This document shows positions 1,545-45,904 of a DNA stretch of 64,000 nt, piece after piece (position 1 is the first letter of the stretch; each line of letters opens with the position of its first letter). The notes under the pieces are model-generated. The model searched no databases, was not told the DNA's origin, and was given only the letters and a program-made list of their open reading frames with translations. The stretch covers positions 110,698,176-110,762,175 of the forward strand of contig CM060897.1 in NCBI GenBank assembly GCA_030762935.1, written 5' to 3'. Source of the stretch: Hymenopus coronatus (taxonomy: Eukaryota; Arthropoda; Insecta; Mantodea; Hymenopodidae). Made by a program: the position numbers and the translations under genes.

Positions 1545-1646
1545 ACGGAGATGTACACGCCACTGATGATGCCTGCCGCAGACGCAGGCGAAACGTCTGG
1601 GGAACGAAGGGAGAAGCCCAGTGGACCACGGCCTACAAGCCCGGTT
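1545..1646 (+). mobile_element. Penelope-like element terminal fragment inside the mariner
   Basis: A hammerhead-type fold (1560-1600) is followed by 'tggaccacggcctacaagcccgg'. The same order (hammerhead, then accacgg-ctacaagcccgg) occurs at 4084-4222. Penelope-like elements are known to carry hammerhead motifs in their terminal repeats. The fragment replaces the catalytic part of the mariner. Boundaries are approximate. Confidence 0.6.
1560..1600 (+). ncRNA. Hammerhead ribozyme, intact core
   Basis: The core CTGATGA is at 1563-1569. Stem II is GCCTGC (1571-1576) pairing with GCAGGC (1584-1589) around a 7-nt loop. GAAA is at 1590-1593 and the cleavage triplet GTC at 1595-1597. Stem I is CCA (1560-1562) with TGG (1598-1600). 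Stem III is only AC/GT with no loop, the minimal form reported for Penelope-type hammerheads, which is thought to need a dimer to cut. An extra U lies between CTGATGA and stem II, as in the second copy. Activity is inferred, not shown. Confidence 0.72.
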
Positions 1647-2965: not shown

Positions 2966-3733
2966 AATCTGATGTTCCATTCACACGACTTTCTCTACAT
3001 CTCTTCCACAAATTATTGTTACAAAGCTTAATCTTCTATCTTCATCATTCTAATCGATATAAGTATTAGCTTTCTTTAAGCAGAAAGGAAATAACCAGAT
3101 TAAAACGACAGCTGGTTGCTATGAGATGAAATCCGTTTCTATGCATTGCCTGGAGTTCACAAATTCCGGTATGTGAAAGGTTTTAAGTATTTTAAAACTG
3201 AAACAAATAACAAGCAATACCTCAAAAATGGTTAACTCAACGAAAAAATGTATCATATGACATAAATTGTGTGTTTTAGCGAGATCTACATTTTTGTGAG
3301 TAAATTTTTGTCTATCACTTACGGTTTACCAGTTATGTAAAATCCAGCAAAACTCATCCAAAATATAAAATTCTTCAGAGGCTATTCCCAGAAAATTCAA
3401 GATAAACGTTTTATTTGCCATGTAAATTCGAATTCTTTTCCATGTATAGGGTAGTTTGGGATAGGGGGATTTTCCTCAAAACCTTTGTGTCGCTTCCTTG
3501 GAAAATACTAAACTTATATACCAAGTTTGGTATTTTATCGACATTTCATTTTTGAGTTATCGTGTTCACAGACACACGGACACACATGGACCTTTTTCTA
3601 AAAATGCTCTTTTTGGATACAAGGGACTCTACAACCCCTATTTCCGGTGAAATCTCGGTGTTGAATTTTTGGGTGGAATGCAATACCTTCTCTATACACC
3701 ATGTACATGGTAGGAACGTGCAGAGAAAGTAAA
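2966..3733 (+). repeat. R1 copy, near full length
   Basis: Begins aatctgatgttccattcacacgactttctctac, has all internal blocks and ends atgtacatggtaggaacgtgcagagaaagtaaag. It is directly followed by another forward copy, forming a two-unit head-to-tail array. Confidence 0.8.
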
Positions 3734-4083: not shown

Positions 4084-4222
4084 AAGCTCGTAGGCTTTCA
4101 CGGCCGGTGTTATTAGGGGTAAAATGAGGATGTCCTCCACAGCTGAGGACGAAACGTCAAATTTTAATAATTTTAATATTTGACCACGGTCTACAAGCCC
4201 GGACAATTTATATTTTACCAAA
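4084..4222 (+). mobile_element. Penelope-like terminal fragment inserted in R1
   Basis: Runs from 'gctcgtaggctttcacggcc' to 'accacggtctacaagcccgg' plus a short tail. The two ends are partly complementary in composition, and the middle is a hammerhead-like fold. The R1 consensus shows that these ~140 bp are extra. Confidence 0.6.
4124..4158 (+). ncRNA. Decayed hammerhead ribozyme
   Basis: Same architecture as the copy at 1560: TGAGGA (4125-4130), one extra T, stem II GTCCTC (4132-4137) and GAGGAC (4145-4150) around a 7-nt loop, GAAAC (4151-4155), GTC (4156-4158). The conserved first C of CTGANGA is an A here (4124), and stem I is not evident, so it is probably inactive. Stem II differs in sequence from the first copy but keeps its pairing. 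Confidence 0.6.
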
Positions 4223-4700
4223 ACTATATGACATAAATTGTATGTTTTAACGAAATCTACATTTTGTGTGTGTAAGTTTTCGTGCATTTCTTACGGTTTA
4301 CCAGTTATGCAAAATTCATCCAGAATGCACAGGTCTTCAGAAGCTATTCTCAGAAAATTCAAGATATACTGTTCATTTGTGATGTAAATAGTTCTAATAC
4401 TGGTATTTTAGTTAAAATTGTTTGAGCCATTTTTGAGAAAAACAAAATTTTCAAAAATTTTCCATGTAAAGAGTATTTTGGGGAACGGAGTTTTGTTGAA
4501 AATCCTTGGTTTGCATTCAAGTTGTGTGTTTAATGGTCTTTCAGTTTTTGAGCTATGCTGTCCAAAGACACACACGGACCTTTTTCTAATTCTTTTTACT
4601 CAGAGAGCTTCAAAACGTATATATCCATTGAAATCTCGGTATCAAATTTTTAGATGGAATACAATACTACCCCTACACACTATGTACGTAATACGGAGAA

Positions 4701-41134: not shown

Positions 41135-42367
41135 GAGGCGTTTAATAAGTCCTCAGAAAATCCAAGAAATTACCTCGTAGCATCGAAAAAAGTTTGTTTC
41201 TAGCAGCCGTCAACTCTTACTAGATGGCAGTTAAAGTTTCAACTATATCCATCACGTGGTTTCGTTGCCATAGGTGACTGAATCAACAATCTTGTGCTTC
41301 TTTGGAAAGATGAAAAAAAAAAAAAAAAAAAGACAAAAACGAGTTTCTCGTGGTGGTTAAACACTTCTATTTAAAACGCTTAACATCAAAAGAGATAAAA
41401 TCCGAGCTGGATAAAGTTCATGGCATATCTGCTCTTGCGTTTGCAACAATTTACAGATGGATATATAAATTTAAGCGTGGCCGTACATCCACAAATGAAT
41501 ATTTCCGGACGTCCAGTAGAAATGACTTCCTCAAGGATATGGTTTGGAGTGATCGACGAATCAAAGTTTGCGAAGTAAGAGTGGCCACAGGCGTATCACA
41601 AAGTACAGTGTTCTCAATTTTTCACCAGAAATAGGTCTGACAAAGGTCTCGGCAAGATGGGTGCCGCGTTTGCTCTCAATGGAGAATAAATGCAATCGTG
41701 TGATCGATTTGAAAGTTGGATTGGCACTTTCCGTCACAGTGCTGACGAGTTTCTGCGTCGATACATAACTGAGGATGAAACATAGTACAGTCGAGACAGT
41801 GGGTTTTTAAAAGCTGGCTCCGAAGAAGGCAAAGTGGTGAAATCAGCAGACCAGGTGATGACCTCGGTTTTTTTGGGATGCACCCAGAATCATCTACATT
41901 TATTACTTGCAGAAAGGAAGAACGATAAATGGAGAGTATTATGCATCGTTATTGCACCGGTTGAAGGGAGAAATTAAGAAAAAACGCCCTCGTCTGACAA
42001 AGAAAAGGATGCTCTTTCATCAAGACAGTGCAAGGTTGTACACCTGCGCAGTTTCGATGGCGAAAATTGTAGAATTAAGGTTCGAATTACTACAACATCC
42101 ACCGTATTCACCATATTTGGTCCCTAGTATCTTATTTTATTTTCAAACTTGAAAAAATGGCTAGGCGGAAAAGGATTCACGTCTAACAAAGAGGTCATAT
42201 CGCAAATAGATGTCTGTATTGAAGGCCTTCCGTAATCGTACATTTTGGAAGGCTGAAAACAGTTGTAGAAAAGTTGAGTTAAAAGGAATTAATAACAAAT
42301 AAGAAAAAATAAAAAAGAATCTACCAAAATTTTTTTCTTTTTCTAACGACTTATTGAACGCCCCCGG
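41135..42367 (+). mobile_element. Full-length degenerate mariner with TIRs and TA duplication
   Basis: The left TIR (GGCGTTTAATAAGTC from 41137) and the right TIR (GGCGTTCAATAAGTC read on the minus strand from 42364) match, extending into AGAAAA on both. TA lies at 41133-41134 and at 42368-42369. Length 1.23 kb is near the family's 1.3 kb. It sits 70 bp downstream of the exon 3 donor. Confidence 0.9.
41350..42290 (+). pseudogene. Mariner transposase pseudogene
   Basis: In order: the first helix-turn-helix (VVKHFYLKRLTSKEIKSELD), the GRTST linker, the second helix-turn-helix (IKVCEVRVATGVSQSTV), WVPRLL at about 41660, a first-Asp region ITEDET, then KGRTINGEYYASLL, the second-Asp motif HQDSAR (about 42020) and HPPYSPYLVPSILFYF. 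In active DD34D mariners the last segment is YSPDLAPSD; here both Asp positions are lost (Tyr and Ile). Several frameshifts and stops confirm a dead copy. Confidence 0.88.
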
Positions 42368-43829: not shown

Positions 43830-44916
43830 CAAACTACAGCCTACATAGTGCTAATCGAGATAAGCATTACCAAAATTCTCTTGTTTTTCAGTTTAAGTCG
43901 GAGGGAAATAAGGGAATGTATTAGGTCAAATATTTTAAAAGCTGTCACTCTACGATTATCATGAGGTAAACAAAAGAGTTATGAAATGGATAAGTGATTC
44001 CCCTTTGACAAAGATTTTAAAGCTGATACCAATAACAGGGAATACCTCTGAAAAGGCTAGCTCTATAAAAATGTATATTACATAAATTGAAAGTTTAAAC
44101 GAGAGCTAAATTTTCATTTATTAAACTTTTGTCAATCACTTACGGTTTACCAGTTATGAAAAGACATTCAGAATGAAGAAGACTTCATTAGCTATCTCCA
44201 AGAAGAAATTTAGGATACACATTTTAATTGCCATATAAACAGCTTTAATGCACGACATTTTAATCGAAATCGTTAGAGCCAAATTTTCCATGTAAAGGGT
44301 AGTTTGTGATGGGATGCATCATTCATTCTAAAGTTAAATGTTTTCGGTTTTGAGCTATGCTGTCCACATACATACATACATACATACATACATACATACA
44401 TACATACATACATACATACATACATACATACATACATACATACATACATACATACATACATACATACATACGTACGTACGTACGTACGTACGTACATACA
44501 ATACAATACATTACATTACATTACAATACATACATTACATTACAATACATACATACATACATACATACATTACATTACAATACATACATACATTACATTA
44601 CATTACATTACAATACATACATACATACATACATACATTTCATTACATTACATTACAATACATACATACATACATACATAAATACATACATTACAATACA
44701 TACATTACATTACATTACAATACATTACATTACATTACAATACATACATACATACATTACATTACATTACAATACATACATACATACATTACATTACATT
44801 ACAATACATTACATTACAATACATACATACATACATTACATTACATACATACGTACAATACATTACATACATACAATACATACATACATACATACATTAC
44901 ATTACATTACATTACA

Positions 44917-44947
<31 letters not shown>

Positions 44948-45375
44948 CATACGTACAATACATACATACATACAACACATACATACATACATACATTACA
45001 TACATACATACATACGTACAATACATTACATACATACAATACATACATACATACATACAATACATTACATACATACAATACATACATACATACATACATA
45101 CATACATACATACATACAATACATACATTACATACATACATACATACATTACATACAATATATTACATACAATTACATACATACATTACATACAATACAT
45201 ACATACATTTCATACATACATACATACATACACACACAACCACATACATACATACATACATACATACATACAAACACAACCACACACACACATACATACA
45301 TATATATATACACACACACACGGACGGACGGACAGAGAGACAGACAGACACTGAACTTTTTGTAAAAATGCGTGC
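43830..45375 (+). repeat. R1 copy whose AC tract has expanded into a satellite
   Basis: R1 5' and middle blocks (43830-44365, to gctatgctgtccaca) and R1 sequence after the AC tract (45350-45375, 'gaactttttgtaaaaatgcg') flank the ACAT array. In other copies this interval is a 20-60 bp AC-rich stretch. Confidence 0.7.
44366..45345 (+). repeat. ACAT-type satellite, about 1 kb
   Basis: Nearly pure (ACAT)n, with (ACGT)-containing and TACATTACAT variants. It ends in AC repeats and short GGAC/AGAC runs. Long Tyr-Ile-His-Thr frames through it are artefacts of the repeat. Confidence 0.97.
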
Positions 45376-45904
45376 AAAGACCCGTCGACCTGGTAGCTAC
45401 CTAGTGTCTACGAAGCGTAATCTTTCCACTGAGCATGCATCCGCGCCATTCATTCGCACTGCCATGCACTACGAACCTGCAATCAGACCTAAAGGAAGAG
45501 AGGGGAGCGAAATAAAGGTGAAATAATAGAAAGGATATCGTGAGAAACCACCTCAGAAATCGCCTGGAAATGCTTATGTAAAATAGTTCTTTGGATAAGT
45601 AATTATTGCGTGTTTGTTTTGATACCACTGAAACTGTATTTTACTCCGCTTATGAACAACTGTTGTTAATACTAGGCAATAAAGACGTTTCATTCAGTCT
45701 GTTCGAATAGTATTTTTCTCGCCAGGATGATATCAGATAGTTGCTTTTTGACCTGTTATATTGCGGCAAGTAACTAATCACTACATGGATCCTAAAATTT
45801 GGAGGAACTTAGATAGTGATTCTATTTACATATATTTTACAACTTCCGACACTAACGAGAAACAAAAAGGAAACTGAAGATTCAGTTATCAACATAACAA
45901 TAAA
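45376..45904. other. Unassigned sequence
   Basis: Nothing recognised; one moderately GC-rich patch at 45380-45500. Confidence 0.4.

Follow-up and report, generated by a model that had tools for sequence, protein, structure and literature searches.

A minimal hammerhead ribozyme in a Penelope-like element fragment

The segment at positions 1537–1663 of the window (the whole 64,000-nucleotide stretch of Hymenopus coronatus DNA analysed here) is very probably the 5′-truncated pLTR of an abundant Penelope-like element (PLE) related to Anolis Poseidon (PAc), which landed in an old mariner, with the hammerhead inside it being the minimal type I ribozyme that this family carries at its pLTR–ORF junction. 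The preliminary description had proposed an intact hammerhead core, minimal as in PLEs, within a Penelope-like fragment, and both parts of this proposal are supported by (i) the presence of the named elements at 1560–1600; (ii) family matches and stem II covariation genome-wide; and (iii) longer family copies that contain an RT ORF and are similar to an Anolis protein. The features of this segment are as follows.

1537–1663, + strand: 5′-truncated PLE pLTR fragment with hammerhead, 127 bp, with the shorter of the two 3′ ends that occur in the family
1560–1562, + strand: stem I 5′ strand CCA, pairing with UGG at 1598–1600, 3 bp only
1563–1597, + strand: hammerhead core, with CUGAUGA at 1563–1569, an extra U at 1570, and C17 at 1597
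1569–1571, + strand: AUG start codon of the PLE ORF, composed of A9 from the core, the extra U, and the G that opens stem II (CUGAUG-A-UG)
1571–1576/1584–1589, + strand: stem II with loop 1577–1583, supported by covariation
1590–1593, + strand: GAAA, from sequence
1593–1596, + strand: ACGU, two-pair or intermolecular stem III, from sequence
1597/1598, + strand: predicted cleavage site after GUC, within codon 10 of the PLE ORF, from sequence

The + strand at 1563–1597 reads CTGATGA-T-GCCTGC-CGCAGAC-GCAGGC-GAAAC-GTC, flanked by CCA at 1560–1562 and TGG at 1598–1600. The conserved core of hammerheads, CUGANGA...GAAA...UH, is matched exactly at 1563–1569, 1590–1593, and 1596–1597. All the elements named in the preliminary description, which held that every conserved element was present in order, were found, but the extra T1570 between the CTGATGA core and the 6-bp stem II had been overlooked; with this nucleotide in between, the core is not fully canonical. 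Stem III has 2 bp without a loop and reaches 4 bp only in a dimer. Stem I also has 3 bp in the same-family rows L189, L215, and L231 and 2 bp in L198; over 16 distinct family cores, there are 0–5 stem I pairs adjoining the core, and five of these cores have none.

Genome-wide family and stem II covariation

The host assembly that was searched contains 3,126,739,099 bases (3.13 Gb) in 384 contigs. The pattern CTGATGA-N8..30-GAAACGTC has 1,276 exact matches in it (623+653), versus 80 (42+38) for a reversed control pattern. Among the 100 listed of the 1,276 matches, stem II has at least 5 bp in 71, 4 bp in 2, and fewer than 4 bp in 27, and some of these 27 are probably hammerheads with a mismatch. 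One extra nucleotide precedes stem II in all 73 listed matches whose stem II has at least 4 bp (U in 71 and A in 2, with offsets 0 and 1 being the only ones tried). The exact 35-mer of the window copy occurs in 39 of the 100 listed places.

Covariation was assessed on 31 distinct 35-nt sequences beginning CTGATGAT, taken from the 100 listed places. In these sequences, 88.2% of the stem II cells are paired, versus 57.4 ± 2.8% in shuffles and at most 47.3% with slid partners, and the stem II covariation score is 0.845, versus 0.269 ± 0.035 in shuffles and at most 0.268 with slid partners. The paired fraction and the covariation score are reached by 0 of 500 shuffles, which is not to be read as a probability because the rows are related; the slide control preserves this relatedness. 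Two further measures separate more weakly: double-change pairs number 5 versus 5.0 in shuffles (reached by 486 of 500), and further pair types number 19 versus 15.7 (reached by 6 of 500).

Among 55 rows compared with the window copy, 45 belong to the same family (78–100% identity, 21 identical) and 10 to other subfamilies (35–45%), the identity inside the core being biased upward since the rows were picked by core match. Judged by distinct 3′ flanks, the 45 same-family rows represent 41 places, and 19 of these 41 are identical to the window copy. Its identity to many other copies suggests that the window copy is recent. With its abundance and its many near-identical copies, the family would be a handy source of natural variants of PLE hammerheads that covary strongly.

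The ORF of the longer family copies

The results of blastn searches against loci of the same genome revealed a shared unit that extends from 1537 to ~1663, mostly at 98–100% identity and up to 100%, and that starts at 1537 except in one distant subfamily (L197). Longer family copies extend upstream through a TATA-like box and the palindromic AGTAGTCGCTACT, and two loci continue further into a long ORF. These two copies (L206, the same place as L213, and L208, the same place as L214) carry the same pLTR with an RT ORF just upstream. The 499-aa pieces from L206 and L208 match RVT_1 at E 1.8e-11 and 2.6e-10, respectively, and L213 yields 611 aa, of which 579 aa are 56% identical to P0027, an 836-aa protein of Anolis carolinensis. 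From the species and the geometry, we infer that P0027 is the PAc protein. Other named protein relatives, found in a search with residues 330–560, include several arthropod records. An ORF with a telomerase-like RT and a GIY-YIG domain, as in PLEs, is therefore assigned to the two longer family copies and is absent from the window copy; hmmscan returned no GIY-YIG domain, and its assignment is based on the similarity to P0027 and a motif read by eye.

The ORF that starts at the hammerhead AUG of the window copy begins MPAADAGETSGE, and P0027 begins MPAIDVGETSGE. An N-terminal xESL block is found within the first 160 aa of only 3 of 38 homologues, 2 of which also have M-x6-ETS, while P0025 is without it; ETS is encoded by GAAACGTC. 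A PLE-like protein that is 61% identical to that of the family (P0015) is labelled as partial Escherichia coli in the public source, a label that is probably due to contamination by animal DNA.

Anatomy of the insertions

The family has two 3′ ends, at ~ORF nucleotides 95 and 130, and the tail between them continues the ORF; the pLTR of the family thus contains the first ORF codons and an optional tail, as is characteristic of PLEs. A PLE tail of 30–40 bp is explained by reverse transcription starting at either of two sites, with the tail lying between them (PMC11167929). All 17 non-overlapping pairs less than 500 bp apart, among the 100 listed of 1,276 places, are arranged head-to-head. We analysed 11 dimers after removing copies whose core neighbourhood was identical and pairs, such as L198, in which the core was irregular. 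In each of the 11, a long 3′ end is combined with a short one; 9 of them span 279–316 bp. Target-site duplications, scored with a shift of up to 5 allowed at the dimer ends, are 8–13 bp in 10 dimers and 5 bp in one, versus at most 6 bp in shifted controls. Inverted pLTRs bounded by target-site duplications, a hallmark of PLEs, are thus present in the family; the window copy is single and has no target-site duplication of at least 5 bp.

Examples of head-to-head dimers with a long and a short 3′ end and target-site duplications are L203, L221, L225, and L232. In several dimers, L203 and L221 among them, the two arms meet in the palindromic AGTAGTCGCTACT that shortly precedes the hammerhead, and these junctions suggest self-annealing of cDNA ends. 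Nothing observed in the anatomy of the family is foreign to PLEs.

The alternative that fares best, which we nevertheless consider very unlikely, is that the segment derives from a metazoan retrozyme, that is to say, from one of the small, non-autonomous elements with circular RNA that carry a canonical type I hammerhead, and not from a PLE. Retrozymes too carry type I hammerheads and are reported to be expressed as units of ~170–400 nt (PMC7229834), and many copies of the present family are short, with 127 bp or with the dimer span given above. However, a PLE RT ORF is joined to the same pLTR in the two longer copies, none of the 17 close pairs among the listed places is tandem, and the tail and the inverted pLTRs are structures of PLEs; tandem repeats of 150–450 bp with canonical type I hammerheads, which would identify retrozymes, were not found among these pairs.

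The mariner setting

The PLE fragment lies between 2 parts of a degenerate mariner.

924–1536, + strand: 5′ part of the mariner (TIR and first part of the transposase), from protein matches with PF17906/PF13565/PF01359
1665–1713, + strand: 3′ terminus of this mariner, including its TIR, from TIR comparison and the homology of relatives

When the 5′ TIR is aligned with the 3′ end, 26 of 30 columns agree, and protein relatives confirm the mariner up to residue 121 of a 170-aa frame. The region 1101–1536 has 39 other genomic copies at 85–89% identity (40 scored of 3,251 candidates). Homology to the mariner stops at 1536–1538 in 9 of 11 relatives, and at 1520 and 1541 in the other two; it resumes at 1665–1674 in all 9 relatives with a 3′ match. 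The relatives have roughly 440–615 bp (~0.5 kb) of mariner where the window has the PLE piece, and the 24-mer across the mariner–PLE junction has one exact occurrence in 3.13 Gb. This gap in homology and the unique junction indicate that the PLE inserted into one old mariner copy, either at a deletion or along with one.

The location inside a dead mariner given in the preliminary description is thus upheld by the protein relatives, both TIRs, and the mariner copies in the genome. The further statement that the hammerhead had been carried into a DNA-transposon copy holds in so far as it lies in one mariner copy; it has not been spread by the mariner, and amplification of the motif by the mariner was rejected, since the junction 24-mer is unique. 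The placement in an intron of a host gene was not confirmed: the candidate exon at 371–538 has no Pfam family at E ≤ 0.1 and no protein match at E ≤ 0.01 (7 candidates).

These results also bear on the idea that the ribozyme is carried and maintained by the mariner or the host gene as a domesticated intronic ribozyme, to which we give very little credence. The motif does lie inside a mariner with both TIRs, and intronic hammerheads are known in human (PMC6155905). Against domestication stand the exact mariner–PLE junction being unique in 3.13 Gb, the apparent youth of the PLE piece, suggested by its identity to other copies, next to a mariner segment that has diverged by 11–15% from the 39 other copies scored, and the fact that no host exon was confirmed.

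Elsewhere in the window, a second degenerate, frameshifted mariner at 41314–42300 (Transposase_1, E 3.6e-11) is diverged from the first, and a long tandem repeat at 44310–45526 is open in several frames (YIHT repeats) and is probably a simple-sequence satellite.

Chance occurrence, covariance models, and predicted folding

The exact pattern does not occur in 100 shuffles of the window. A looser descriptor of minimal hammerheads has 1 match in the window versus 9 in 300 Markov windows (~0.03 per window). In Rfam, nothing in the whole window reached the gathering score, and a search of 1.2 kb returned no hammerhead at E ≤ 10; with 116 nt alone, the best model was Hammerhead_3, at 11.9 bits (cut-off 48.5) and E 5.7, with the extra u treated as an insertion. 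The chance matches of the loose descriptor and the silence of Rfam make the motif by itself no more than suggestive. The significant covariance-model match whose absence the preliminary description had named as a refutation was therefore not obtained from Rfam, but this test is weak, because the same models also missed, at E ≤ 1, a viral-contig hammerhead (L111) that has all three stems and the extra U. We read the silence of Rfam as insensitivity to forms that lack stem III and carry an insertion, and not as exclusion.

The viral hammerhead, at L111:4418–4452 with its flanks (IMGVR_UViG_3300048536_000555), has the extra U before stem II, and the hammerhead is its minimum-energy fold. The viral stretches with CTGATGATG..GAAACGTC number at least 120; as a control for chance, 5 of 120 had a stem of at least 5 bp, one of these being L111. 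The 3′ 18-mer of the PLE family occurs in 9 stretches of viral contigs and 53 of prokaryote genomes, and all 62 lack GAAAC[AG]T in the 140 nt preceding them and were taken as unrelated. For the second copy (described below), the 5′ 18-mer has no match in viral contigs.

At −18.4 kcal/mol, the minimum-energy fold of the monomer has the GAUG of the core paired to CGUC, and the hammerhead fold has −12.5. A tandem dimer modelled in the double-hammerhead fold has −22.4 versus −38.7 for an alternative, so the dimeric-fold model suggested in the preliminary description does not come out as the best. Since the calculated energies favour alternatives in both monomer and dimer, the core is not predicted to fold unaided.

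A chance match in mariner DNA, the least tenable explanation, might appeal to the loose descriptor, the non-significant Rfam scores, and an ORF that continues in frame from the mariner into the segment with a YTP that resembles the mariner YTPE motif, but it is already refuted by the blastn unit, by the 1,276 genome family matches with their strong covariation, and by the 11 mariner relatives checked, none of which matches the PLE segment. In a comparison with four relatives, the segment after 1537 is also not mariner-like in any of the three forward frames (17 of 300 shuffles reach the strongest score).

A second PLE fragment in the window

The window contains a second, diverged fragment of a PLE pLTR.

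4085–4225, + strand: second, diverged PLE pLTR fragment, 141 bp, a discrete insertion into a high-copy repeat
4124–4158, + strand: hammerhead relic ATGAGGA-T-GTCCTC-CACAGCT-GAGGAC-GAAACGTC, with core C3 changed to A

When the flanks of 4085–4225 were joined to represent the empty site, 37 of 46 alignments to other copies of the repeat crossed the junction. The flanking repeat family recurs across the window in 37 places, including 3208–3383 and 1906–2084. A script scan of the window revealed that the relic has the same extra T and the same stem and loop lengths as the first copy, and GACCACGGYCTACAAGCCCGG is common to both fragments (20 of 21) at a near-equal distance downstream. In stem II, 3 of the 6 pairs differ from the first copy, and all 3 are compensatory double changes, a result that 59 of 500 shuffles match in this comparison of two rows. 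The best local alignment of both regions is the downstream tail, with a score above all 2,000 shuffles; for the hammerhead part without the tail, the alignment score is reached by 2 of 5,000 shuffles. Two near-identical stem-loops with CTGATGATG are present among the genome matches listed. With A at C3, the relic is presumably dead; in the PAc hammerhead, C3G abolishes cutting (PMC11167929).

The start codon and a proposed mode of action

The AUG of the PLE ORF is built from ribozyme nucleotides, and the predicted cut falls after ORF nucleotide 29, that is, 26 nt past the AUG. In PAc, the hammerhead is located at the pLTR–ORF junction, C3 and G8 precede the AUG, and the cut is 26 bp past the start codon (PMC11167929). 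Given the cut 26 nt past the AUG and C3 and G8 before the start codon, as in PAc, the extra U is best read as a coding constraint; this suggests that an odd extra nucleotide of the ribozyme is constrained by the start codon. By analogy with the reported geometry, PAc probably shares the extra U.

In a full PLE transcript, two copies would be joined by a stem III formed from the self-complementary ACGU of each, or the PLE protein would aid folding. The RNA would then be cut after GUC (after 1597), inside codon 10, in multi-copy transcripts or with the PLE protein, and the downstream cleavage product would be without its start codon. The lone window copy probably has no present function and, as a monomer, would be cut poorly or not at all.

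Because the ribozyme core and the start codon share nucleotides, folding and cutting could compete with translation, and the element could use this competition to switch its RNA between the roles of messenger and transposition template, a mechanism that this host would have in common with reptiles, although we regard such a switch as rather unlikely. If it existed, an RNA being translated would have to be misfolded as a ribozyme, and a cut RNA would lose its start codon.

Comparison with known systems

PLE hammerheads were reportedly described by Cervera and de la Pena in 2014, and small PLE hammerhead variants that cleave as dimers are said to have been described by Lunse, Weinberg and Breaker in 2017. 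Minimal PLE hammerheads occur by the thousands in many metazoan genomes, where they are mostly dispersed (PMC7761336). The window hammerhead resembles these published small hammerheads in being of the minimal type I, in having no real stem III, and in belonging to a PLE (PMC7761336). With the canonical type I hammerhead and the Rfam models (RF00008), it shares CUGANGA, stem II, GAAA, the A–U pair of stem III, and UH at the cut; it differs from them in the extra U before stem II, the 3-bp stem I, and the 2-bp loopless stem III, and it scores below the Rfam thresholds. As an example of what is already known from animals, it is good but not out of the ordinary. The window copy alone changes nothing in the field, and it illustrates cleanly how PLEs scatter minimal hammerheads through animal genomes.

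The EN+ Penelope families of the rotifer Adineta vaga are described with inverted head-to-head pLTRs, an optional 31-bp tail on one arm, a TATA box, a 5′ palindrome at the inverted junction, target-site duplications, and a pLTR that contains the first ORF codons (PMC3846280), and the present family shares all of these: inverted pLTRs, tail, TATA box, palindrome, target-site duplications, and first codons in the pLTR. The palindromes at the inverted junction in rotifer Penelope were argued to mean self-priming (PMC3846280). The copy number of A. vaga Penelope is low, in contrast to the abundant family described here, and the word hammerhead is absent from the main text of that paper (PMC3846280).

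The closest counterpart is PAc (PMC11167929). The two elements agree in (i) the position of the hammerhead; (ii) C3 and G8 upstream of the AUG; (iii) the 26-nt cut geometry; (iv) the ORF start at stem II; (v) two 3′ ends with a 30–40-bp tail between them; and (vi) homologous proteins, the 56% identity to the Anolis protein extending over 579 aa. They differ in host, and cutting of the PAc hammerhead was shown with protein, whereas the window family is known here from its sequence. The PAc hammerhead was cut only with the PLE protein (PMC11167929), and the predicted poor folding of the window hammerhead on its own is in keeping with this behaviour.
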